Assembly (NCBI GenBank): GCA_013287475.1
Contig: JABDDT010000011.1
Span: 1 to 61,076 of the forward strand
Direction: 5' to 3'
From: Bacteroidota bacterium
GTDB lineage: Bacteria; Bacteroidota; Bacteroidia; Chitinophagales; Chitinophagaceae
DNA length: 61,076 nucleotides
Below the pieces are notes generated by a model that saw only the letters and a list, made by a program, of their open reading frames with translations, made no database searches and had not been told where the DNA came from. Shown here piece by piece: positions 20,593-33,949 of the stretch. Both the position numbers and the translations under genes were made by a program. Numbering within the stretch: the first letter of the stretch is position 1; every line of letters starts with the position of its first letter.

Positions 20593-21786
20593 ATGAATAC
20601 TGAAGATGAATTCCGGCAGGATCCTTCCGAAGAGCTCGCGAAACGGATCGCCTTTCTGATCAATGGGTATATCCGGAATACGCTTACAGTACCTGAACAT
20701 CATGAATTGGATGAATGGGTTTCTTCCAGTATGAAAAACCAACAACTTTTCGAAGAACTGACCGATCCGGATAACATTAAGAAATGGATTAACTGGAATA
20801 ACAGACTTAGCAGTAAAGCAGCGCTGGACCGGATTAAAAGCCGTATGGAATTTAGACAGGCGCCCAAGGTTCTTCAAAAGCGCAGAATTTGGTTCTATAG
20901 TACAATTGCAGCTGCTGTTATTTGTTCGATTTTTTTTCTGGAATATTGGTTTCAGAAACCAGCGTTCGAACGACCACCAATAAACGTTTCAAATCACGAT
21001 CTGCCACCAGGCGGATATCATGCGGTACTTACCCTGGCAAACGGTATGAATATTTTACTTGACACAGTAAAATCAGGTAAAATCGGAGCAAATAATGATT
21101 TGCAGATCACGAAGGATAATGTTGAACTTAAATATGCAATTTTAGAAAAAATGAATTCTGTAATTGCAATGGATGAACTCAACACGCCACCCGGTGGAGA
21201 ATTTCAGGTCCGGTTGAGCGATGGTACGAAAGTCTGGTTGAATGCTTCTTCAACTTTGAAATACCCTGAACAGTTTTCTGATTCGATACGGAAAGTTGAA
21301 TTATCCGGAGAAGCTTATTTTGAAGTTGCAAAGGACGCGACACATCCATTTATTCTTTCTGCTGGGAATAATAATGTTCGCGTATTGGGAACGCATTTTA
21401 ATGTCAATAATTATGCGGATAACCAGGAAACAATTGTGACGCTGGCTGAAGGATCCGTAAAATTGAACGGATCGGTGATACTAAGCCCGGGAGAAGAAGG
21501 ATCGATTGACCATTCAGGTAAAATCAAGACCGGAACCGCTGATTTGGAATCTGCATTAGCCTGGAAAGACGGACAATTTATTTTTAAGATGACTCCTTTG
21601 GAACAGGTTATGAAACAGGTATCACACTGGTATAATGCAAGGATTTTTTACCAGGATAATATTTCGGATCATTTCAATGCACGAATTCCAAGAGATGTAC
21701 CGGTGAGTAAGCTGCTTCACCTACTGGAAGCAACAAACCAGGTGCATTTTAAGATAGAAGACAAAACAATTACTGTAATGAGATAG
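20593..21786 (+). CDS. FecR-family anti-sigma/signal-transducing membrane protein
   Basis: A 397-aa inner-membrane regulator. Residues 1-90 form the cytoplasmic sigma-binding part; a single TM helix (YSTIAAAVICSIFFLEYWF) lies around 97-116; the periplasmic FecR domain follows (PPGGEFQVRLSDGTKVWLNA, VELSGEAYFEVAKD, RVLGTHFNVNNY), with a C-terminal STN-like region. FecR proteins relay substrate binding at a SusC-type transporter to an ECF sigma factor. Here SusC (with STN domain) and SusD follow at once, but no sigma gene is adjacent; the nearest ECF gene without an anti-sigma partner is at 33246-33821. Confidence 0.92.
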   Translation: MNTEDEFRQDPSEELAKRIAFLINGYIRNTLTVPEHHELDEWVSSSMKNQQLFEELTDPDNIKKWINWNNRLSSKAALDRIKSRMEFRQAPKVLQKRRIWFYSTIAAAVICSIFFLEYWFQKPAFERPPINVSNHDLPPGGYHAVLTLANGMNILLDTVKSGKIGANNDLQITKDNVELKYAILEKMNSVIAMDELNTPPGGEFQVRLSDGTKVWLNASSTLKYPEQFSDSIRKVELSGEAYFEVAKDATHPFILSAGNNNVRVLGTHFNVNNYADNQETIVTLAEGSVKLNGSVILSPGEEGSIDHSGKIKTGTADLESALAWKDGQFIFKMTPLEQVMKQVSHWYNARIFYQDNISDHFNARIPRDVPVSKLLHLLEATNQVHFKIEDKTITVMR

Positions 21787-21843: not shown

Positions 21844-24800
21844 ATGCGACCGATTGCATTCCTTAGAATATTATGTATTATCATGATCCTTTTCATCCCG
21901 GTATGCGGGGGAGCTTTATTCGCACAGACTGGCGATCTGGTAACTATTAATCTTGAGAATACTTCGCTTCAAAAGGTATTTTCTGCCATCGAGGCTCAGA
22001 CTTCATATCGTTTTATATATACGAATGAACAGTTAAAGGGAGGAAAAACTTTTACAATTTCGGTTAATAAGGTGCATGTTCAGGCAGTGTTGAAACAATG
22101 TTTTCAGGATCAGCCGGTCAACTATTCCCTTGAAGATAAATTCATTATTATAACCAGGAAGGACAATGAAGATAAATCCTATCCTATTGATATATCTGGT
22201 ATCGTAAAAAATGATAAAGGGGAACCAGTTGTTGGCGCAACGGTAACAATTTTGGGAACCGAAAAGGCCACCACCACGGAATTTGATGGAAGTTTTATTC
22301 TGAAAAAGGTTCCTGCAGACGCCACCCTGGTTTTCAGCGGGGCCAATGTGGAAAAAGAACAAATCGTTCTTCATGGACAGCAGACATTGAATGTCATTCT
22401 TAAAGCCAAAATAAATAAACTGGACGAAGTGCAGATCATCGCATATGGAACGACGACTCGAAGATTAAGTACCGGTAGTATAGATAAAATAAATTCGGAA
22501 ACGATTGGTCAGCAACCTGTATCAAATCCATTAGCAGCAATGGAAGGAGAAGTACCGGGACTGGATATTACTCAGGTCACAGGCATGGCAGGAGGTAATT
22601 TTATAGTTCGAATCCGTGGTCAGAACAGTATTCAAAATGGTAACGATCCATTATATGTTATAGATGGAGTTCCGATTCTTTCAAACTCAGTTAGTGATCC
22701 TGCGTTAAGTGCCATCATTATTCAGGGCGGTAGTGCTCTGAGTACACTGAATCCCAAGGACATTGAAAGTATTGAAGTATTAAAAGATGCTGATGCCACA
22801 GCTATTTACGGTTCACGCGGGGCAAACGGTGTTGTTTTAATTACAACAAAAACGGGAAAGTCTGGTAAATCTAAAATAGATCTGAATTTATCCGGTGGTC
22901 AGGGGAATGTTGATCGTACCGTGCGGTTACTCAACACTCCGCAATATCTCCAGATGCGCCGTGAGGCATTTGCAAATGATAAAGAGACACCTACACTAAA
23001 TAACGCCGTAGACCTTTTGCTTTGGGATACAACCAGGTATACTGATTGGCAAAAAACGCTTATTGGACAAACAGCTAATATTTTAGATGGACAATTGGCG
23101 ATTTCAGGAGGCAATAACAATACTCAATTTAGGTTAGCGGGTAATTATTATAGACAAACGGCAGTTTTTCCAGGATCATTTGCTTATCAAAAAATATCAG
23201 GCTCAGCAGCAATAAATAATGTTTCAACAGATCAGAAATTAAAAATACAATTTACGGCAGGATATAATGTTGAAAACAATAATCTGCCGAATCTTGATCC
23301 AACGACAAATATATTTCGATTACCACCCGATGCACCACCAGGTCATGATTCTTCAGGCAGTATCAATTATTCAGATGGATTTTATCAAAACCCATATCCA
23401 ACATTTGCCCGGACTTATTCCTCAACCACTTATAATCTGATTACAGACGCCGTTATAAGTTACCGGATACTCGAAGGCCTGACCATAAAATCCAACCTGG
23501 GATATAGCAGTATACATATGGACGAAACCTTACTCATTCCTCTGAGTTCTATAAATCCGGCAGTGGGATATACTTCGGGGTTTTCAGAGCCGTCAAATCA
23601 TCAATTTAATAACTGGATTGTTGAGCCTCAGTTAGAATATCAAAAGGTTTCCGGATCGATGAAGTGGGGTGTTTTATTGGGATCAACATTCAATCAAAAT
23701 GAAACACAGGGCACTACTTTTTTTGCTACAGGTTTTCCTAGTGATGCGCTGATTCAGGATCTGTCTGCAGCTTCTTTTTTGATGGTTCAAAATGAAACGT
23801 CGACTCTTTACAGATATAATGCTTTTTTTGGTCGTATCAATTTGAACTGGCAGGACAAATACCTGATCAACCTGACAGGCCGTCGTGATGGATCAAGTAG
23901 ATTTGGACCGGATAACCGCTTTGCCAATTTTGGCGCAATTGGGGCCGCATGGATTTTCTCAGCCGAATCTTTTATGAAACATTCCCTTCCTGTAATTAGC
24001 TACGGAAAATTGAGAGCGAGTTACGGTACCAATGGTAATGATCAGATAGGTGATTATAGCTATCTTGATTTGTGGCAGACTTCATATTATCCATACAATG
24101 GAACAAGTGGGCTTAATCCGGCGAACTTATATAATTCTTCATTTAAGTGGGAAACCAATCAGAAGCTGGACATAGGTCTTGAGCTGGGAATTGCCAGGGA
24201 TAAATTATTGTTTACAGTAGATTATTATCATAATCTGACCACTAATCAACTTGTAAGCTATCCGCTTCCGAATATAACTGGATTTTCTTTCATTCAAAAT
24301 AATTCTCCGGCAAAATTGTTAAATTCCGGATGGGAATTCGAATTGAATGGAGCAATTATAAAAAACGAAAAAGTAAATTGGAATCTGTCGGTTAACCTTA
24401 CCCTTCCCAATAATAAACTGCTTGCTTATCCTAATCTTGCAGGATCAAATTATGCCAACATCTATGAAGTTGGCAAATCAATCTATCTAAGGAAACTCTA
24501 TCACAATTTGGGTGTTGACCCAAAAACCGGCATTTATACTTTTCAGGATGTAAACAATGATGGTCAGATAACTTACCCCGCAGATCTTACTGATTATAAA
24601 ACAATCGCAAAAACTTGTTACGGAGGTCTCGTTAATAATTTTCAATATAAAAACTGGCAATTGAATTTTACTCTTCTGTTTGTACAGCAAACGGGATATA
24701 ACTACCAATATAACTATCCTGGAGCACCCGGCTCAATGAACAATCAGTCAGCCATTGTTTTAAACCGATGGACACAACCCGGAGAAATTACACCCGTCCA

Positions 24801-25095
24801 ACAATATACTCAGAATACCGGTTCTGAAGCATATCAGGCCTGGTTCAATGCCAGTGGAACCGGAGATAATATTATTTCAGATGCTTCATTTATCAGATTA
24901 AAAAACCTCTCAATTGCTTACCATTTCGCGAAGAATTGGCTGGAAAGAAATCACCTGCAGGATATTCGAATTTATGTACAGGCACAGAATTTATTTACTA
25001 TTTCTCATTATCAGGGACTGGATCCTGAAAGTCAGAGTAATTCCGTCCTTCCGCCTTTGAGAGTTTTGACTGCAGGAATACAAATTATTTTTTAA
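21844..25095 (+). CDS. SusC/RagA-type TonB-dependent outer-membrane transporter with STN domain
   Basis: A 1083-aa outer-membrane transporter. A signal peptide is followed by an STN domain (about residues 35-105, INLENTSLQKVFSAIE), a carboxypeptidase-regulatory-like domain (about 118-195, GIVKNDKGEPVVGATVTI), the plug (LDEVQIIAYGT, NPLAAMEGEVPGLDI, RIRGQNSIQ, PLYVIDGVPI) and a long beta-barrel ending in GIQIIF with a terminal aromatic residue. The STN domain marks it as a signalling transporter that talks to FecR. It pairs with SusD 10 bases downstream. The substrate is not evident: no glycoside hydrolase adjoins, and the next genes are thiol-redox proteins, so a peptide or protein fragment is as likely as a glycan. 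Confidence 0.95.
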   Translation: MRPIAFLRILCIIMILFIPVCGGALFAQTGDLVTINLENTSLQKVFSAIEAQTSYRFIYTNEQLKGGKTFTISVNKVHVQAVLKQCFQDQPVNYSLEDKFIIITRKDNEDKSYPIDISGIVKNDKGEPVVGATVTILGTEKATTTEFDGSFILKKVPADATLVFSGANVEKEQIVLHGQQTLNVILKAKINKLDEVQIIAYGTTTRRLSTGSIDKINSETIGQQPVSNPLAAMEGEVPGLDITQVTGMAGGNFIVRIRGQNSIQNGNDPLYVIDGVPILSNSVSDPALSAIIIQGGSALSTLNPKDIESIEVLKDADATAIYGSRGANGVVLITTKTGKSGKSKIDLNLSGGQGNVDRTVRLLNTPQYLQMRREAFANDKETPTLNNAVDLLLWDTTRYTDWQKTLIGQTANILDGQLAISGGNNNTQFRLAGNYYRQTAVFPGSFAYQKISGSAAINNVSTDQKLKIQFTAGYNVENNNLPNLDPTTNIFRLPPDAPPGHDSSGSINYSDGFYQNPYPTFARTYSSTTYNLITDAVISYRILEGLTIKSNLGYSSIHMDETLLIPLSSINPAVGYTSGFSEPSNHQFNNWIVEPQLEYQKVSGSMKWGVLLGSTFNQNETQGTTFFATGFPSDALIQDLSAASFLMVQNETSTLYRYNAFFGRINLNWQDKYLINLTGRRDGSSRFGPDNRFANFGAIGAAWIFSAESFMKHSLPVISYGKLRASYGTNGNDQIGDYSYLDLWQTSYYPYNGTSGLNPANLYNSSFKWETNQKLDIGLELGIARDKLLFTVDYYHNLTTNQLVSYPLPNITGFSFIQNNSPAKLLNSGWEFELNGAIIKNEKVNWNLSVNLTLPNNKLLAYPNLAGSNYANIYEVGKSIYLRKLYHNLGVDPKTGIYTFQDVNNDGQITYPADLTDYKTIAKTCYGGLVNNFQYKNWQLNFTLLFVQQTGYNYQYNYPGAPGSMNNQSAIVLNRWTQPGEITPVQQYTQNTGSEAYQAWFNASGTGDNIISDASFIRLKNLSIAYHFAKNWLERNHLQDIRIYVQAQNLFTISHYQGLDPESQSNSVLPPLRVLTAGIQIIF

Positions 25096-25105
25096 ATGAT
25101 GAGCC

Positions 25106-26485
25106 ATGAAAATGATTAAAATGCTTATAAGCCGGTTATGCATTGTTGTATATGTAATGGTCTTTGGATCATGTCAGAAGTTTGTAGATATTGGCGCACC
25201 AAAAACAAAGTTGGTTGGAACCAATGTATTCACAAATGATCAGACGGCTACGGCTGCTATGACCGGCATCTATGGTAAAATGATGGGGAATAACGGAAGC
25301 TTCCTCAATACTGAATTAAGCTTATTAGGCGGACTCTCAGCTGACGAATTCGTCGACTATTCAGGTGTACCCATTCGACAGCAGTTTTACCAGAATGCTT
25401 TAAGTACAGGAAATAGCGAAGTATTCAGCCTCTGGAGCGATGCCTACAATTATATTTACCAGGCAAACGCGATATTGGGAGGAATAAAAAACGCTGCAGG
25501 AATTAGTGTAAGTGTGAAAAAAGAATTGGAGGGTGAAGCAAAATGCATTCGTGCAATCTGTTATTTTTACTTATTGAATTTTTATGGGGATGTTCCCCTG
25601 GCTGTAACGACGAGTTACCAGGTCAATACCAATTTATCCCGCCTTCAACCTGCAGAGATTTACCAACAAATAATTTCTGACTGTGAGGATGCCCAGAATC
25701 TTCTTCCCGAAGATTTCTCATTTTCTAACGGCGAAAGAGTACGCCCTAACCATTTCGCAGCAACTGCGCTTTTGGCGAGAGCTTATCTTTTTATGAAGGA
25801 TTGGAAAAATGCGGAAATACAGGCTGATTCTATTATTAATAGATCAGATTTATTTACGTTACCAGTTGACCTTAACCTGGTTTTCCTGGCGAATAGTTCC
25901 GAAGCTATCTGGCAATTGGAGCCTGTTCAACCAGGGTTAAATACAATTGAAGGAAATAGTTTTATTCTTACGGCTTTTCCAAATTCCGTTGCCTTAAGCG
26001 ATTCTATAGTTAAAGCGTTTGAACCAGGTGATGGAAGGCGGCTGAATTGGATCGATAGCATCGTGATAGATGGTAGCGCTTATTATTTCCCATTTAAATA
26101 CAAGATCCAAACAGGATTTCAGGTAACCGAATACTGCATGGTATTGAGACTGGCGGAGCAGTATCTGATTCGGGCTGAAGCAAGAGCCGAACAGGGAAAT
26201 CTTACCGGAGCTGCCGATGATCTGAATCTAATCCGGAATAGGGCTGGTCTGAGTAATACACTAGCCTCCGATCAGAATGACCTGCTGGCTGCGATTCAAC
26301 AGGAAAGAAGGGTTGAGCTATTTACAGAAGATGCAACGAGATGGCTCGACTTAATTCGCACCGGAAAGGCAAGCCAGGTTCTTAGCAATTTCAAAAATGA
26401 CTGGAAAACCACTGATACTTTATATCCCATTCCTCTAAGTGAATTGCAAAATGATACTCGCCTGACTCAGAATCCCGGGTATTGA
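25106..26485 (+). CDS. SusD/RagB-family nutrient-binding outer-membrane lipoprotein
   Basis: A 459-aa surface lipoprotein (lipobox VFGSC) of the SusD fold that caps the SusC barrel. Typical blocks: ANAILGGIKN, EGEAKCIRAICYFYLLNFYGDVPL, PNHFAATALLARAYLFMKDW (TPR-like helices), LRLAEQYLIRAEARAEQGN, LNLIRNRAGL, and the C-terminal ERRVELFTEDATRWLDLIR and TQNPGY ending. The length is slightly below the family average. The last 12 or so codons are also preserved as a relic at 27899-27938, after the first thioredoxin-like gene, marking a duplication endpoint. Confidence 0.95.
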   Translation: MKMIKMLISRLCIVVYVMVFGSCQKFVDIGAPKTKLVGTNVFTNDQTATAAMTGIYGKMMGNNGSFLNTELSLLGGLSADEFVDYSGVPIRQQFYQNALSTGNSEVFSLWSDAYNYIYQANAILGGIKNAAGISVSVKKELEGEAKCIRAICYFYLLNFYGDVPLAVTTSYQVNTNLSRLQPAEIYQQIISDCEDAQNLLPEDFSFSNGERVRPNHFAATALLARAYLFMKDWKNAEIQADSIINRSDLFTLPVDLNLVFLANSSEAIWQLEPVQPGLNTIEGNSFILTAFPNSVALSDSIVKAFEPGDGRRLNWIDSIVIDGSAYYFPFKYKIQTGFQVTEYCMVLRLAEQYLIRAEARAEQGNLTGAADDLNLIRNRAGLSNTLASDQNDLLAAIQQERRVELFTEDATRWLDLIRTGKASQVLSNFKNDWKTTDTLYPIPLSELQNDTRLTQNPGY

Positions 26486-26517: not shown

Positions 26518-27837
26518 ATGAGTACTCATAAATGGCAATTAATTGTAGTGTTGTTTTTCATTAGCAACATAGTATCTAATGCGAATGCTGCGGTACATCA
26601 GGCTCCCAAAATTGGAAAGCCCTGCCCTGATTTTAAATTGACTAACCTGGTTAATTCAAAAAAAAAGCTGGTCACTTTAAAAGATTTCAGAGGGAAATGG
26701 CTAATGATTGATTTTTGGGAAACCACTTGTATATCATGTGTACAACGATTCCCGGAAGTGAATAGGCTCCAACAAATTTTCAAAAAAGATCTCACCGTAT
26801 TATTGATTGGATATAACGATTATCAGTATGACCGCCATATTAAGAAAATGTATCTGCAGATTCAGGATAGATTGCATCTGCAAATGTTGGCCGCATTTGA
26901 TTCTATTTTATTAAAACGCTGGCATGTTTATTCTGTTCCGCATATCATTCTGGTGGATCCAATTGGAGTTGTTTATACTATTACAGGAGGAAGCGATATG
27001 GATTCAGCAAAGATTCGCCAATTGATTGACGGGAAAAAACCAGGATTTCGGCTAAAGGAATTCGCAAGAAAATTTGACTGGCAACAACCATTACTTATCA
27101 ATAACAATGGGGGGCTGGATACGGAATTTTTATACCGCTCCATTCTTACACGTTATGTGGAAGAAGATCCTTTGACACTGGACAATATTGGCAACTATAC
27201 CGAGAAGAATAAGGTTGGATTTCAAATAACCTGCGCACCGTTAAGCAGATTGTATCAATATGCCTATTTGGGAAAAGTCTATTGGGCATTGTATAATGAT
27301 ACATTCTACGGTAAAGTTTCACCTGAATTGGCGCTGGAGATTTCAGATTCTTCTGATTTCAAACCGGATTTTAATAAACCTAGGAATATATTTAATTATA
27401 GCCTGTTTGTTCCCCCAGGGAAAGCCAATGTCGAATATCTTATGAAGGTTTTACAGAGAGAACTCAAAAACTGTTTTGGATATGAAGCTTCCATAGAAAA
27501 CAGGGAGATGCCCTGCTGGCTGCTTCAATTGCGAAAAGATACCGCGGTCCTTTTTAAACCAACCAACTCAACAAGATCACTTTATATGGATGCCATGGGT
27601 CTGCAGATCGATAGTGGAAAACTAGGAGAATTGATAATTGGAATTTCTGGCTTTTGCCCGTTGGATCGCCTTCAGATATATGACGAAACCGGGATAGATT
27701 ATCCAATTGATATAGAATTTAAAGCTTTACTGACAGATTTTAGTGAAGTACAGCAGGAATTACACAGACACGGATTGGAGCTGGTTAAGGGGAAAAAATG
27801 GATGAAAACAATCGTAATCCGTAATCCTGCTCCATAA
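26518..27837 (+). CDS. Secreted TlpA-like thioredoxin-fold protein with DUF3738-like C-terminal half (copy 1)
   Basis: A 439-aa exported protein (signal peptide about 1-25). Residues 30-175 form a thioredoxin/TlpA domain: GKWLMIDFWETTCISC places the redox pair at Cys71 and Cys74, and SVPHIILVDPIG carries the cis-Pro loop. Residues 190-439 are a second domain: a helical LMKVLQRELKNCFGYEASIENREMPCWLLQL block, then DETGIDYPIDIEFKA and LELVKGKKWMKTIVI, resembling DUF3738/TIGR03435 proteins (inference). The active-site pair CISC differs from CPAC in copy 2, so redox potentials may differ. It is 32 bases after SusD and likely in the same operon. Confidence 0.85.
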   Translation: MSTHKWQLIVVLFFISNIVSNANAAVHQAPKIGKPCPDFKLTNLVNSKKKLVTLKDFRGKWLMIDFWETTCISCVQRFPEVNRLQQIFKKDLTVLLIGYNDYQYDRHIKKMYLQIQDRLHLQMLAAFDSILLKRWHVYSVPHIILVDPIGVVYTITGGSDMDSAKIRQLIDGKKPGFRLKEFARKFDWQQPLLINNNGGLDTEFLYRSILTRYVEEDPLTLDNIGNYTEKNKVGFQITCAPLSRLYQYAYLGKVYWALYNDTFYGKVSPELALEISDSSDFKPDFNKPRNIFNYSLFVPPGKANVEYLMKVLQRELKNCFGYEASIENREMPCWLLQLRKDTAVLFKPTNSTRSLYMDAMGLQIDSGKLGELIIGISGFCPLDRLQIYDETGIDYPIDIEFKALLTDFSEVQQELHRHGLELVKGKKWMKTIVIRNPAP

Positions 27838-27970: not shown

Positions 27971-29287
27971 ATGATTAGTTTTAAATGGCAGTTTATTGTA
28001 GCGTTGTTTTTCATTTGCAACTTGGTACCTAAGGCGAATGCAACAGTTCATCAGGCTCCCAATATTGGAAAGCTCTGCCCAGATTTTAAATTGACTAACC
28101 TTGTCAATTCGAAAAAAAAGCAGGTTACTTTAAAAGATTTCAGAGGAAAGTGGCTGATGATTGATTTTTGGGCTAACGGATGTCCTGCTTGTGTGGAAAA
28201 AATGCCAAAGGTAAACAGGCTTCAGCAGATGTTCAGAAAAGATCTAACCGTTTTATTGATTGGGTATAACGATTATCAGTATGACCGCCATATAAAGAAA
28301 ATGTATCTGCAGATTCAGGACCGATTGCATCTGCAAATGTTAGCCGCATTTGATTCGGTTCTATTGAGACGCTGGAATGCTTATTCGCTCCCCCATATTT
28401 ATCTGATAGACCCTATGGGAGTGGTATATACCATTACTCCAGGAGTCGATTTGGATTCAGCCAAGATTCGTCAATTGATTGACGGTAAGAAACCAAGTTT
28501 CCAGTTATATGGATACACAAGAAAATATGACTGGCAACATCCATTACTTATAAATAACAACGGAGGTCCCGATACCGGATTCGTATATCGCTCCCTGCTT
28601 ACGCGTTATGTGGACGAAGATCCTATTTGGTGGAACGATATCGGAAACTATATAGAAAAAAACAAGACAGGATTTCAGATAACCGGTGCGTCATTAAGCA
28701 AATTGTATCAATATGCCTATTTCGGAAAAGTTAATTGGGGATTGAATGATACCTTCTACAGTAAAGTCTCACCAGAATTAGATTTGGAAATTTCAGATTC
28801 ATCCGATTTCAAAAAAATAGACTTTAAAACACTGAATTTATTTAATTATAGCTTGTTTGTTCCACCTGGAAAAGCTAATGTCAATTATCTTATGCAGGTT
28901 TTACAGAGAGAACTCAAAAACTATTTTGGATATGAAGCTTCTATAGAAAACAGGGAAATGCCCTGCTGGCTGCTTCAATTGCGAAAAGATACTACGGTTC
29001 TTTTTAAACCTACCAAATCAACAAGATCATTTTATGAGGATGCCATGGGCATGCAGATAGATAGCGGACAATTAGCAGAACTGATTTTTGGGCTTTCAGA
29101 CTTTTGCCCGTTGGATCGCCTGACCATATATGACGAAACCGGGATAAATTATCCAATTGATATAGAATTTAAAGCCTTTCTGACAGATTTTAATGAAGTT
29201 CAGCAGGAATTGCATAATCACGGATTGGAACTGGTTAGAGGGAAAAAATGGATGAAAACAATTGTGATCCGGGATCCGGCTCCATAA
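27971..29287 (+). CDS. Secreted TlpA-like thioredoxin-fold protein with DUF3738-like C-terminal half (copy 2)
   Basis: A 438-aa paralogue of the preceding gene, alike along its whole length. The thioredoxin motif is DFWANGCPAC with Cys71 and Cys74, a more canonical CPxC site than the CISC of copy 1. The loop before the second domain (GKKPSFQLYGYTRKYDW) and the His-to-Asn change in RWNAYSLPHIYLIDP differ between copies. The C-terminal half keeps MPCWLLQLRKD, DETGINYPIDIEFKA and KWMKTIVIRDPAP. An export signal is present. The 133-base spacer before it contains duplication relics of both neighbours. Probable role: periplasmic thiol-disulfide exchange on a substrate linked to the SusCD or MauE genes (inference). 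Confidence 0.85.
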   Translation: MISFKWQFIVALFFICNLVPKANATVHQAPNIGKLCPDFKLTNLVNSKKKQVTLKDFRGKWLMIDFWANGCPACVEKMPKVNRLQQMFRKDLTVLLIGYNDYQYDRHIKKMYLQIQDRLHLQMLAAFDSVLLRRWNAYSLPHIYLIDPMGVVYTITPGVDLDSAKIRQLIDGKKPSFQLYGYTRKYDWQHPLLINNNGGPDTGFVYRSLLTRYVDEDPIWWNDIGNYIEKNKTGFQITGASLSKLYQYAYFGKVNWGLNDTFYSKVSPELDLEISDSSDFKKIDFKTLNLFNYSLFVPPGKANVNYLMQVLQRELKNYFGYEASIENREMPCWLLQLRKDTTVLFKPTKSTRSFYEDAMGMQIDSGQLAELIFGLSDFCPLDRLTIYDETGINYPIDIEFKAFLTDFNEVQQELHNHGLELVRGKKWMKTIVIRDPAP

Positions 29288-29303: not shown

Positions 29304-30362
29304 TCAGAGGTCCAGATCGTACCTGACTAAGGAATTGCCTTGAATAGTAAAAAGTTGTTTTCCCTGAAGAGCGAAACTGCTTATTTTATTATTGTGGATC
29401 TTAGGAAGATAAAAACTAAACCGGTATCTTCCATCTTTGGAATCGTACACATCGATCACAGAATTATTTTTAAATGCTTTCCGATCTTCGTTATCAGCGC
29501 ATAATGCAGAACATATAAGGATAGATTTGCCTGAGAGACAAATAAATTTGTTTACCAAAACAGGTGGAGAAGCAAGAATGTTTTGTTCATGTACTATTCT
29601 AACTTCTATTTTTGACTGTGAATTGGTATCGAGTGTTTTCGATCTATAAATAACCTGGAGATTAGTATCCAGGCAAATAAATTGATTTCGATAAAAATAC
29701 ATATAAACCAGTCGGTTGGATTGGTAATCTATTTGCATGGATCCGTCTGTACAAAAAAAGCCATCAACCTGCTTTTCCAGAACATTTGCCGAATTCTTAA
29801 ATGTCGGAACGCTTAGATTTACTTTAGTCAGGATATTGCTTTGAATTTTGTCGAGGTAAGTTCTTAGGATAATGGACTTTGCAGAAATCGCCGATGTTGC
29901 GGAAGATGAAAATTTCAAAGTATCGATAGTTTTAATATTGCCTGAATTATTGATATCCCCCTGAAAGACTATGGATCTAATTTTGTCAACAATAAAAAAA
30001 TTCGGAGAATCAATACTCACCATGATTTGTGAAGGATCATAATTTTGATAATCGGAGATTGAGAAATGAACAGAATGTGTATCGTGCAAATTCATATTGA
30101 CAATAGACAATTCAAAGGGGTTATGATTATTGCTGATATAAATATTGCTTGCTGATTTACCAATGATGTAATCATTGTTGGACCTGCCTTCCAGAATGGC
30201 AGTTCTTAGAATGACATGAGATGGAAAAACCCTATAAAAAGCATTTTTGCTTTTATGAAAATTTTCTGAATGTAAATACAAAACGATTATCGGAAATATA
30301 CCAACCAGCATTCCAGCAAATAGATTAATCAAAATACTTGACTTTTGTAGAGGCCTGATCAT
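29304..30362 (-). CDS. Membrane-anchored hypothetical protein, possible beta-propeller
   Basis: A 352-aa protein with one N-terminal hydrophobic helix (SILINLFAGMLVGIFPIIVLYL) and no cleavage site, so probably anchored with a periplasmic body. The rest is strand-rich with propeller-like blocks: DGSMQIDYQSNRLVYMYFYRNQFICLDTNLQ, VLVNKFICLSGKSILIC and NNSVIDVYDSKDGRYRFSFYLP. From memory, proteins of this kind sit beside MauE/DoxX-like and Cys-rich peptide genes in other Bacteroidota; I cannot check this. It is 49 bases downstream of the Cys-rich peptide gene with a terminator hairpin between, so it is probably expressed by read-through. Its last codons are duplicated at 27853-27900. Confidence 0.7.
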   Translation of the reverse strand: MIRPLQKSSILINLFAGMLVGIFPIIVLYLHSENFHKSKNAFYRVFPSHVILRTAILEGRSNNDYIIGKSASNIYISNNHNPFELSIVNMNLHDTHSVHFSISDYQNYDPSQIMVSIDSPNFFIVDKIRSIVFQGDINNSGNIKTIDTLKFSSSATSAISAKSIILRTYLDKIQSNILTKVNLSVPTFKNSANVLEKQVDGFFCTDGSMQIDYQSNRLVYMYFYRNQFICLDTNLQVIYRSKTLDTNSQSKIEVRIVHEQNILASPPVLVNKFICLSGKSILICSALCADNEDRKAFKNNSVIDVYDSKDGRYRFSFYLPKIHNNKISSFALQGKQLFTIQGNSLVRYDLDL

Positions 30363-30370
30363 ATTGAATG

Positions 30371-30404
30371 ATTTAAAAAGGGGCTCATTATTGAAAGCCC
30401 CTTT
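30371..30404 (-). terminator. Terminator/attenuator between the Cys-rich peptide gene and the 352-aa gene
   Basis: A 9-bp perfect stem (AAAGGGGCT / AGCCCCTTT) with a 10-base loop; on the minus strand it continues into TTTTTAAAT. It should end most transcripts after the small peptide gene and lower expression of the 352-aa gene. Confidence 0.75.
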
Positions 30405-30411
30405 CTTATTG

Positions 30412-30642
30412 TTAAGGCAGAGATCTTGTTAAAGCCACAGTACAGGTGGTCTGATCAGAATATGCCTGGGCCCCCATGAAAGTACAAGCGACTCCTGGAA
30501 AATTATTACAGGTTACAACTGCCTGATTACAATTTGGTTTAATATATCCATTACCAATTAAATTATTACCATGCTTGGAAGTAAATGCACTTCCGATAGC
30601 AAGTATAAATGCTGCTGCTATAAATATGTTTTTTCTTTTCAT
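30412..30642 (-). CDS. Secreted small four-cysteine peptide (DUF6520-like)
   Basis: A 76-aa protein with a basic start and hydrophobic core (KRKNIFIAAAFILAIGSAF), i.e. a signal peptide, leaving a mature region of about 50 residues. Cysteines fall at 38, 45, 53 and 67 (PNCNQAVVTCNN, VACTF, TTCTVAL), enough for two disulfides. It resembles the small Cys-containing proteins annotated DUF6520 in Bacteroidota (from memory, unverified). Upstream on the same strand is a MauE/DoxX-like redox membrane protein; downstream is a terminator, then a membrane-anchored propeller. The arrangement suggests a highly expressed exported peptide whose disulfides are set by a dedicated membrane partner (inference). 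Function unknown. Confidence 0.75.
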   Translation of the reverse strand: MKRKNIFIAAAFILAIGSAFTSKHGNNLIGNGYIKPNCNQAVVTCNNFPGVACTFMGAQAYSDQTTCTVALTRSLP

Positions 30643-30726
30643 ATAAAAATATTAATGATTAAAAAAGATACCTACTCTGTTTTACAGGTTTTCGGTGACT
30701 CCTGCTTTTATTGCAATAAAATATCT

Positions 30727-31182
30727 TCAATATAATTTTGATTCTTTAGTTGTCCGCATCTTGTAAGTTTCTAAACGTAAAATCGAAAGAGCCGCCAACA
30801 AAACAAGGACTATATTAAATGCAAGGTGAGTTTTCCAGGACATATGTTGCAATACTCCACCACATGAACATGGAATGAATTCACTGAAATTCAGTATCAC
30901 AATAATATAAACTGTGAACATAATCATAATCGTAAAGGAGGCGTACAATCCCTTCAATCGCAAACGATTAATAGAAAGAAGAATGGCAATCATAATTTCA
31001 ATGACGGGAATAATCAAAATGATCCAACCCGTAAATCCAGTCAGTAAGGGAGATTGAGCGAGCTGGGCATTAAAAGAGGAGAAATCAACTAGTTTGCTTA
31101 CAGCCGCATATACAAATAGAAAAATGAACAAAAAACTAATGAAATCAGGAAAATATTTTTTTAAAATTTGAGTTGATTGCAT
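30727..31182 (-). CDS. MauE/DoxX-like redox-associated membrane protein
   Basis: A 151-aa four-helix membrane protein, starting at the ATG at 31182; an ATG at 31203 would add seven residues. Helix 1 carries FVYAAVSKLVDFSSFNAQLAQSP, the usual opening of DoxX/MauE proteins. The cysteine motif FIPCSCGG lies on the loop after helix 3, typical of the MauE-like group. MauE works with MauD in maturing the disulfide-rich small subunit of methylamine dehydrogenase; here no mau structural genes exist, so a similar role for the four-cysteine peptide 84 bases downstream is inferred. It is preceded by the AraC regulator gene on the same strand. Confidence 0.8.
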   Translation of the reverse strand: MQSTQILKKYFPDFISFLFIFLFVYAAVSKLVDFSSFNAQLAQSPLLTGFTGWIILIIPVIEIMIAILLSINRLRLKGLYASFTIMIMFTVYIIVILNFSEFIPCSCGGVLQHMSWKTHLAFNIVLVLLAALSILRLETYKMRTTKESKLY

Positions 31183-31285
31183 GTATTGTTCTATCAGATA
31201 CAAAGGTCAATGTATCCGTAACCGGATTCCAAATAAATTGTATTGGCATTCGGTAGTTTTAATTTGGCAAAAAGATATGAGATTA

Positions 31286-32263
31286 TTACTTTTTTTGAAT
31301 CTGGCTTGGCGGGTAGCCATAATATTCCCTGAACCTGGTAATGAAACTTGTCACCATTTCATATCCTACCATACTGGCGATGTTTTTAACCGGCAGGCCA
31401 GAGTCTTTTAAAAGCCGATGAGCTTCTTTCATTCGTTGATCGAGGTGGTATTTAAAAATTCCTTTGCCGAAAATCTGCTTAAAACCAAGTTTGAGTTTTA
31501 TCTCGTTCATACCCATTTCCCTAGCCAATGGAGTGATTGGAAACTTGCCGTTTGGATTCTGCTGAAGGCGGACTGCGAGTTCCTCGAGACGATCTTTTTC
31601 TTCTCTGGAAAGAAAAAACTTTGGCTCTTCTTTATTGGAAGATTCAGCCATCAAGAGTAGTAAGTATTCTCTGACCTTATATTCAAAGTAGATTTTATTT
31701 ATGCTCGCATTAAACGGTGAATTCAAAATGTCGTTTACCAGGGATAGAACCTTATCACCGGCAAATCGGTTGTGCAATAAGAGTTGGAAAGAGTGATGAC
31801 TTTTTGTTTTTTTAAATTGTTCGGCTAATCTTGGAAAATAATGAAGAATTTTGGCAACCATTTCATCTGAACAGTAGATTTCAAGCATTTGATATTCCTT
31901 TCCAGCTCTGAATTCTGTTTCTATATTTTCTTTATTATTTTTAAAAAAATTAAAATGCCCTTCTTTTACCCGGATCAGACCGATTCTTTCTATACTGCAT
32001 TTAAAATTATTCTTTATTGCAAGATAGGATCCGGTTGAAAATTCTTGCGGCCTCAGTATACACCGGATCATATGTAGAAATTTATAAACCCCAAGAAGAA
32101 TAGTAAAATCTGCCTGCCTGAATTCCTGCAAGACGACCATTCCAAACTTTGTCTGAATGGATAATGCCCTAGCGCCATGGAATATTAAACTCCGATATCC
32201 TGGTGGAAGGCCGTCTTGAAATGGATAAGAGTCTTCATCCTGTAGATTAATTAATGTAAGCAT
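31286..32263 (-). CDS. AraC-family transcriptional regulator
   Basis: A 325-aa regulator. The C-terminal 110 residues contain the two helix-turn-helix units of AraC proteins: ITPLAREMGMNEIKLKLGFKQIFG, then the signature VKNIASMVGYEMVTSFITRFREYYGYPPSQIQKK. The N-terminal 210 residues are a sensor region without a clear cupin motif; the type is common in Bacteroidota next to peptide or siderophore loci. It is on the same strand as, and about 100 bases upstream of, the MauE-like gene, so it may activate the MauE/peptide/propeller genes. About 390 bases of AT-rich non-coding DNA lie upstream of its start. Confidence 0.9.
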   Translation of the reverse strand: MLTLINLQDEDSYPFQDGLPPGYRSLIFHGARALSIQTKFGMVVLQEFRQADFTILLGVYKFLHMIRCILRPQEFSTGSYLAIKNNFKCSIERIGLIRVKEGHFNFFKNNKENIETEFRAGKEYQMLEIYCSDEMVAKILHYFPRLAEQFKKTKSHHSFQLLLHNRFAGDKVLSLVNDILNSPFNASINKIYFEYKVREYLLLLMAESSNKEEPKFFLSREEKDRLEELAVRLQQNPNGKFPITPLAREMGMNEIKLKLGFKQIFGKGIFKYHLDQRMKEAHRLLKDSGLPVKNIASMVGYEMVTSFITRFREYYGYPPSQIQKK

Positions 32264-32649: not shown

Positions 32650-32925
32650 ATGATCCAGGATATTTCGAAAAAACCATTTGTATTTATATTCCAGTTGGAG
32701 GCTAGGACTGCAGCGACAGCACGCATTCTTGCACTGTTGCTGGAACGTAGTATTGAAGTTGACGAATTCTATTTCTATAGCAGAGAAATGAATCAGGGCC
32801 GGCTTATGATTCATTGTCAAATGGAAAGGGACAGGATTGGGCGTACGGCTTCCTTGCTTGATAAATTACCGGGTGTTTTAAAACTGGATTGGATGGAAAG
32901 TAAACGTCACGGACCAAGGGGATAG
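32650..32925 (+). CDS. Stand-alone ACT-domain protein (IlvN/IlvH-like)
   Basis: A 91-aa protein whose whole length fits the beta-alpha-beta-beta-alpha-beta ACT fold: FVFIFQLEARTAATARILALLLERSIEVDEFYFY, then RLMIHCQMERDRIGRTASLLDKLPGVLKLDW. This is the layout of acetolactate synthase small subunits (IlvN/IlvH), with the RILALLLER helix in the expected place, but the usual first-strand Asn-x-x-Gly effector motif is replaced by EARTAAT. No ilvB or other branched-chain gene lies nearby, so it may bind an amino acid on its own or partner an enzyme encoded elsewhere. Confidence 0.65.
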   Translation: MIQDISKKPFVFIFQLEARTAATARILALLLERSIEVDEFYFYSREMNQGRLMIHCQMERDRIGRTASLLDKLPGVLKLDWMESKRHGPRG

Positions 32926-33245: not shown

Positions 33246-33821
33246 TTATAATATAAATAATCCAAATATCAAACTTAATAAGGCTTTTTGAAGCAAATCG
33301 ATTCCACGGACTTTATGTGATTTAACGGTCCCTATGGAAATTTTCAACTCTGTAGCTATCTCGGATATTTTTTTACCTTCAACATAGTGCATTAAAAAAA
33401 CCCTTTTGCATTGTGGTGGCAATTTTTCCATAGCGGCATAAATCATTGACATGGTTTCGGAATATATCATGCTTTCAAGTATTGTCCGCTCAGATACTTC
33501 TTCTATTGCAGAGATCTCATTATTGCGTGAAATATCGCGTTTATTCTTTCTGATCCAGGAAATACAGCCATTACGGGCAATGGCATATAAATAAGATTTC
33601 AGTGAACGGATTTCCGATAGGATGTGACGCTTATTCCAAAGATTAATAAAAGCATTTTCTACAATATCTTCAGCAGCACTTTGGTCGTTTGTAATCCTGT
33701 ACGCGTATAAAACAAGAGGAGCGTAAAATTGATTGAAGATAGTTGTAAAGCAGGCTTCATCTCCGTTTTGAAGTTCACAAATTAAATGCTGATCACCCGT
33801 AAGTTTTGGTCGCCCTGACAT
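33246..33821 (-). CDS. ECF RNA polymerase sigma factor (Bacteroidota FecI-like)
   Basis: A 191-aa sigma-70 family protein of the extracytoplasmic-function type, from the ATG at 33821 (MSGRPK). Region 2: FTTIFNQFYAPLVLYAYRITNDQSAAEDIVENAFINLW, with the -10 recognition helix SYLYAIARNGCISWIRK. Region 4: LPPQCKRVFLMHYVEGKKISEIATELKISIGTVKSHKVRG, the DNA-binding helix. A hydrophobic C-terminal tail (LLSLIFGLFIL) is notable and could touch the membrane. No anti-sigma gene adjoins, while an orphan FecR lies at 20593; they may be partners (inference). It is divergent from the XRE regulator. Confidence 0.9.
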   Translation of the reverse strand: MSGRPKLTGDQHLICELQNGDEACFTTIFNQFYAPLVLYAYRITNDQSAAEDIVENAFINLWNKRHILSEIRSLKSYLYAIARNGCISWIRKNKRDISRNNEISAIEEVSERTILESMIYSETMSMIYAAMEKLPPQCKRVFLMHYVEGKKISEIATELKISIGTVKSHKVRGIDLLQKALLSLIFGLFIL

Positions 33822-33949
33822 TTTATAAATTTGCATCGAATGGCATCGCCATTAGAATACTAAATTAAGAAAATTAATTTAAAAAGCCACTAATAAAGGG
33901 TATCTTATTAGTGGTAACCCATATCACGGCGTTTTATTTATTTTAATAA

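Follow-up and report, generated by a model that had tools for sequence, protein, structure and literature searches.

A MauE-family protein, a beta-propeller and a four-cysteine DUF6520 peptide form a conserved cassette in Bacteroidota, usually convergent with a SusC/SusD pair

The window, which is the whole 61,076-nucleotide stretch of Bacteroidota DNA analysed here, carries genes for a MauE-family membrane protein, a beta-propeller protein and a small four-cysteine peptide, and comparison across genomes shows that the three make up a Bacteroidota unit which is conserved and usually convergent with genes for SusC, SusD and either a TlpA-type protein or a peptidase. The grouping is far beyond chance. 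Most likely, the MauE-propeller protein would serve as an inner-membrane thiol enzyme dedicated to folding the peptide, set beside an importer of the peptide type. The features concerned, with their strand and supporting matches, are the following.

20593..21786, plus strand: FecR-type anti-sigma regulator, immediately 5′ of SusC (FecR, E 9.4e-19)
21844..25095, plus strand: SusC/RagA TonB-dependent transporter with an STN domain (Plug, E 8.1e-19; STN, E 2.4e-7)
25106..26485, plus strand: SusD/RagB lipoprotein (SusD_RagB, E 3.5e-26)
26518..27837, plus strand: TlpA/redoxin-type secreted protein, first copy, CISC (AhpC-TSA, E 9.5e-11)
27971..29287, plus strand: TlpA/redoxin-type secreted protein, second copy, CPAC (AhpC-TSA, E 2.2e-14)
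29304..30362, minus strand: membrane-anchored beta-propeller protein, 352 aa (BLASTP to MauE fusions; AF2 model)
about 30375..30406, minus strand: hairpin resembling a terminator, 3′ of the peptide gene and 5′ of the propeller gene (12-bp stem, -18.4 kcal/mol, z -4.59)
30412..30642, minus strand: 76-aa signal-peptide protein with four cysteines, DUF6520 (PF20130, E 1.8e-5)
30727..31203, minus strand: MauE/DoxX-like protein with four transmembrane helices and PCSCGG, TTG start or ATG at 31182 (PF07291, E 1.3e-30)
31286..32263, minus strand: AraC-family regulator (HTH_18, E 5.8e-18)
33246..33836, minus strand: ECF sigma factor (Sigma70_r4_2, E 1.8e-16)

The minus-strand order of AraC regulator, MauE, peptide, terminator and propeller given in a preliminary description of this DNA is borne out by the ORF coordinates, the Pfam matches and the energy of the hairpin, and the CSCGG motif reported there is present in MauE. 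Likewise, the two secreted thioredoxin-fold proteins and the SusCD pair placed on the opposite strand are confirmed by Pfam (AhpC-TSA, SusD_RagB and Plug). The CISC and CPAC motifs of the two TlpA copies were read directly off the sequence, and the second copy has a weak DUF3738-like C-terminal part (E 0.0052, below the Pfam cut-off for DUF3738). This plus-strand arm, comprising FecR, SusC, SusD and the two TlpA genes, converges on the minus-strand propeller gene with 16 bases between them. The ECF sigma factor is possibly the partner of FecR, its tie to the cassette being weak; at another locus (L070) a similar-looking ORF precedes the AraC gene, as judged by look and not by Pfam. Between the sigma factor and AraC genes lies a 91-aa ORF (32650-32925, plus strand), ACT-domain-like by eye and with no Pfam match at E up to 0.01. 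The genome to which the window belongs has one MauE of this kind and one such peptide, with a second, longer MauE-type frame on another contig, and its other matches to the peptide are weak only (E 0.15 and 0.17).

For the comparison, a MauE-only alignment (A1) was scanned against 84,980 species genomes using one peptide pattern around PC[SG]CG, and the best 80 of at least 591 confirmed relatives were kept. These belong largely to Flavobacterium, Aequorivita, Chryseobacterium and Flavivirga, others including Chitinophaga and Chryseosolibacter. Locus profiles came from the window together with L057-L064, L066 and L067; the 80 kept loci did not contribute to them. A small cysteine-rich peptide adjoins MauE in 79 of these best 80 loci, 76 being called by profile (among them L099 with seven cysteines and L119, cut after three) and those of L104, L126 and L134 by a rule of a signal-like start plus four cysteines. 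Rare adjacency, which the preliminary description had named as an argument against a functional unit, is clearly not what is found there. The propeller is also present in 79 of the best 80; at L071 MauE stands alone, with the peptide and propeller 9 kb off. Of the unit first proposed, MauE plus peptide, the pair is thus conserved, but the propeller, which lies outside the stretch 30412-32263 considered at that time, belongs to the core as well and is fused to MauE as a single polypeptide in 63 of the best 80 loci.

Convergent SusD and convergent SusC are each found in 71 of the best 80 loci, an S9 peptidase in 63 and TlpA in seven. Among the nine loci without SusD, four lie on contigs that stop no more than 4.7 kb from MauE, and in L071, L080, L097, L099 and L118 convergent SusD is absent despite at least 8.8 kb read downstream. 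The proposed thioredoxin-fold and SusCD partners hold in part: SusCD is the usual neighbour and TlpA accompanies loci of the window type, but most loci have the S9 peptidase instead. Four Flavivirga loci (L104, L112, L126 and L134) carry the four-cysteine peptide upstream of MauE and not downstream, and neither S9 nor TlpA was found in them by the profiles.

Controls and independent searches were also made. Neither peptide nor propeller occurs in any of the 20 control loci, which carry other MauE types (L035, L036, L039-L056) and for which flanks of 1.5 kb were read, partly filled by those loci's own longer MauE frame. In a DUF6520 search of 198 Bacteroidia genomes, all five places over the cut-off (in four genomes) adjoin MauE, as do the weak match G175:C8 and the window, with 15 other weak matches standing outside this count. 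A search of 395 Bacteroidia genomes with the propeller gave 14 places, spread over 11 genomes and counting the window and several seed loci, and 13 have MauE and the peptide within 1.5 kb. The remaining place, G380, is the most distant of them and lies on a contig that stops about 570 bases upstream. Within the window's order, this MauE type occurs in 5 of 119 genomes, so the cassette is patchy. ORFs with an NYNExK motif, which we take to be relaxase-like, were seen in 9 of 93 loci (L060, L062, L079, L082, L103, L108, L121, L142 and L145), suggesting spread on mobilisable elements, and a plasmid search with the fused MauE-propeller of L093 gave no match.

The window MauE scores 106.8 bits against PF07291 (cut-off 27). 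PCSCGG occurs in 89 of 94 MauE sequences, a frequency partly built in because the scan pattern required PC[SG]CG. Over the same 94 sequences the mean number of lysines and arginines is 2.95 at the N-terminus, 2.05 in loop 2-3 and 2.93 at the C-terminus, whereas loop 1-2 has 0.50 and the motif loop 1.09. This bias places the two termini and loop 2-3 inside, and the Cys-x-Cys motif is accordingly predicted to face the periplasm, where the peptide and propeller should be. Other MauE types (L040, L041, L043, L044 and L054) have CGCFG or CGCLG plus a downstream CxxC in frame, a region resembling a thioredoxin-type partner domain.

The 352-aa protein of the window, described earlier as membrane-anchored and propeller-like, has one predicted N-terminal transmembrane helix and a beta-rich domain (AF2 pLDDT 93.5), and the Foldseek matches listed (50 of 1390) are mainly beta-propellers of many kinds. 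It has no Pfam family over cut-off and none is common to the 59 of 87 propellers that were aligned (A4). Over nearly its whole length it aligns by BLASTP with the C-terminal part of MauE proteins of about 500 aa at five loci, identity to these and to the stand-alone protein of L060 being 26-31% (E 3e-32 to 4e-44). Its fusion to MauE at most loci is what makes the propeller part of the unit, and the charge and transmembrane logic applied to the MauE loop would put the propeller domain in the periplasm also.

The peptide has exactly four cysteines, as first described, at residues 38, 45, 53 and 67, and its signal peptide was read by eye. It had been presented as undescribed, which holds for its function, as the family is without a functional assignment, but not for the family, since DUF6520 (PF20130) is already named. 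The window peptide scores 25.5 bits, which is 0.1 bit over the cut-off (25.4); in the six-frame genome search the same place scores 24.4 bits, under the cut-off. From 90 profile matches, with three exact duplicates removed and the window added, 88 distinct peptides were obtained, of which 82 were aligned (A3). Left out were L060 (two cysteines), L071 (9 kb from MauE), L099 (seven cysteines), L119 (contig end after three cysteines), the fourth copy of L122 (six cysteines) and L139 (a near copy of L132), the L060 peptide being a true exception to the four-cysteine rule. DUF6520 is matched at E up to 0.01 by 78 of the 82. All four cysteines are invariant in 82 of 82 rows and, with Met1, are the only invariant columns, mean column identity being 29%. 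The gap between the first and second cysteines is 5-6 residues in 75 of 82 and that between the second and third 7-8 in 80 of 82, with 9-23 residues between the third and fourth. Invariant cysteines with a variable last spacing fit structural disulfides better than a redox motif, and a redox carrier with a fixed CxxC is disfavoured by the same variation. The mature peptides are close to neutral (charge -1.0 on average, from -6 to +5), which also disfavours a cationic antimicrobial peptide. The structure model of the peptide is weak (pLDDT 69.6) and gave no structural match at E up to 0.001, and a PDB sequence search with the MauE and peptide profiles gave no match.

The peptide is a fast-diverging protein with conserved cysteines. 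Over 55 loci, mean identity is 0.283 for its cysteine-bearing part and 0.347 for its signal part, compared with 0.315 for S9, 0.383 for the propeller, 0.472 for SusD, 0.526 for SusC and 0.545 for MauE. More than one copy is found in L122, L129, L096 and L149, and L122 (F. aquidurense) has five tandem copies beside one MauE-propeller and one SusCD. Near-identical peptides also occur in different Chryseobacterium genomes (L092, L094, L095 and L100).

The terminator described after the peptide gene is supported by the stem and folding energy given above, and a simple consensus terminator scan did not list it. A hairpin lies 3′ of the peptide gene in 57 of 60 loci of the fused type and in 6 of 6 kept loci with the window's gene order; for the gap 5′ of the peptide the count is 0 of 54. 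These counts used shuffles that preserve base composition only, and the one fused locus classed in them as 'peptide before' is L100, with a frame that starts too early. As the propeller lies behind this hairpin in the window order, the arrangement suggests that the peptide would be made in excess of the propeller.

Adjacent SusC and SusD homologues mark the window locus as a SusCD pair of the RagAB type, and the TlpA pair there occupies the place of the S9 peptidase found at most loci. Across loci this arm carries either TlpA or non-homologous peptidases (S9, Met-zincin and S8), L105 having a Met-zincin in the peptidase place and L060 TlpA plus a subtilase; of the 64 S9 ORFs that exceed 800 aa, 63 have the GxSxG motif. 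With TlpA or these unrelated peptidases, the SusCD arm reads as apparently serving peptide uptake and dismantling. STN and FecR occur in the window and in L186, and for SusC of the window type uptake could be coupled to transcription through its STN domain and the neighbouring FecR. SusC of the S9 type is mostly about 1000 aa and that of L093, the one scanned, has no STN, so signalling through SusC would not be general.

Partial Mantel-type tests were run over 53 loci with 2000 permutations. The mature peptide correlates with the propeller (r 0.31 in the linear test and 0.21 in the rank test, 0 of 2000 permutations in each) and with S9 (r 0.24 linear, 0 of 2000; 0.08 rank, 106 of 2000), and r is near zero or negative with SusC, SusD and MauE over these loci. 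The signal-peptide control gave r 0.31 linear and 0.11 rank with the propeller; it equals the mature peptide in the linear test, so no single partner is picked out, and coevolution was set aside as a pointer to the partner.

Several known systems resemble parts of the cassette. The methylamine dehydrogenase system comprises MauE, a thioredoxin-like protein (MauD), a small cysteine-rich exported protein and a propeller protein. The cassette likewise has a MauE-family protein, a thioredoxin-like protein, a small cysteine-rich exported protein and a propeller; it differs in that the peptide has four cysteines, the propeller matches no Pfam family, and SusCD and peptidases are added. PF02975 and PF06433, covering the heavy and light subunits of methylamine dehydrogenase, were unmatched in the window's own genome, which is 74% complete, and control genomes likewise gave no match. 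MauE has been speculated to aid disulfide formation in methylamine dehydrogenase (quoted in PMC7794033). In the candidate RiPP clusters of Streptomyces found by decRiPPter, MauE homologues lie near small precursor peptides, and other mau genes are absent in the genomes named there (PMC7794033). MauE beside a candidate small peptide is common to both, as far as the clusters are described there; the Bacteroidota cassette belongs to another phylum and adds a signal peptide, the propeller fusion and the SusCD arm, the likeness being one of description. Among the matches listed, these clusters are the nearest printed parallel found (PMC7794033).

NVEALA peptides adjoin six-bladed propeller, TolB-like or DUF4221 lipoproteins in arrays (L176:1881-16653 and L177:2517-8685), which are possibly a parallel peptide-propeller system in other Bacteroidia genomes. 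These pairs share with the cassette a small exported peptide, often with cysteines, adjoining a propeller protein, but their propellers have a lipoprotein-like start whereas that of the cassette has a transmembrane helix. Inspection by eye of the ORFs in these two stretches showed neither MauE nor SusCD, PF14055 (NVEALA) gave no match in G000 at E up to 0.001, and homology between the two sets of propellers was not found (hhalign probability 1.5). There is also a two-cysteine class (L063, L064, L066, L067, L186 and L187), in which a regulator, MauE and a small signal-peptide protein are convergent with SusD and SusC. TlpA was identified by profile in L180 (the L064 place), L186 and L187 and by eye elsewhere in this class, and L186 has FecR and sigma-factor genes. 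These loci carry one cysteine pair, no propeller and no match to the DUF6520 profile built here; judged by gene content, they are a sister class within a wider class. A literature search found no papers on DUF6520, NVEALA or 'methylamine utilization protein MauE', and the matches listed, which covered few subscription papers, held no description of the Bacteroidota cassette.

The MauE motif, the propeller and the DUF6520 protein are all placed in the periplasm, from which we infer electron exchange between MauE and the peptide with the propeller holding the latter. The peptide would be exported by Sec and bound by the propeller, which would present it to the periplasmic Cys-x-Cys of MauE; MauE may then shuttle electrons between the peptide cysteines and the membrane, most likely by oxidation yielding two structural disulfides. 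The folded peptide would work in the envelope or outside, and the SusCD arm may import this peptide itself or a related one as substrate, to be dismantled by TlpA (reduction) or a peptidase (cleavage). On balance we lean, by a little, towards the whole locus being one functional unit in which the MauE-propeller protein would dock and most likely oxidise the peptide and the SusCD arm would import it or a related one. The earlier interpretation is partly supported, the biochemical role being one that we infer.

An appreciably weaker candidate, though a tenable one, is an ordinary peptide-nutrient locus, in which SusCD, TlpA and the peptidases import and digest external peptides and MauE, propeller and DUF6520 protein form an accessory for periplasmic thiol balance or sensing, the small protein being a subunit or regulator and not cargo. 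The variety of unrelated peptidases and TlpA on the SusCD arm, the GxSxG of the S9 ORFs and the near-neutral charge of the mature peptides all agree with it. A fixed subunit, however, would hardly be expected to be less conserved in its cysteine-bearing part than SusD and SusC, an argument tempered by S9 being nearly as variable, or to be present in five copies per one MauE-propeller and one SusCD as in L122.

It is unlikely that the peptide is released as a ligand or bacteriocin, read by the producer's own SusCD and destroyed by TlpA or the peptidase for self-protection. Conserved cysteines with diverging loops are the pattern of a disulfide scaffold, and the multiple copies, the STN and FecR of the window and L186 and the relaxase-like ORFs would suit such a role, but passage of the peptide across the outer membrane would have to be assumed, the peptide is not cationic and does not covary with SusC or SusD, and near-identical peptides recur across Chryseobacterium genomes. 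That the small ORF is no real gene and its neighbourhood an accident has next to no probability, despite the 0.1 bit by which it exceeds the Pfam cut-off, as gene, cysteines and position are all conserved, the hairpin follows the peptide and does not precede it, and the 80-locus comparison rules out pure chance.

The functional unit favoured above joins three orphan parts: the DUF6520 family, a MauE subfamily that stands alone, and a propeller family for which Pfam has no model. A bolder extension, which we regard as doubtful, is a widespread and horizontally moving Bacteroidota system for self-peptide signalling or antagonism, in which each cell would make its own diversified disulfide-scaffold peptide by means of a dedicated MauE-propeller thiol enzyme and sense it again with a matched SusC(STN)/SusD-FecR receptor, TlpA or a peptidase being the off-switch; if true, it would be of a kind not described before. 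With the peptide, the MauE family would gain a small and tractable client beyond methylamine metabolism. As for the SusCD repertoire of Bacteroidota, the cassette would suggest that some of it is devoted to self-made peptides and not to glycans.
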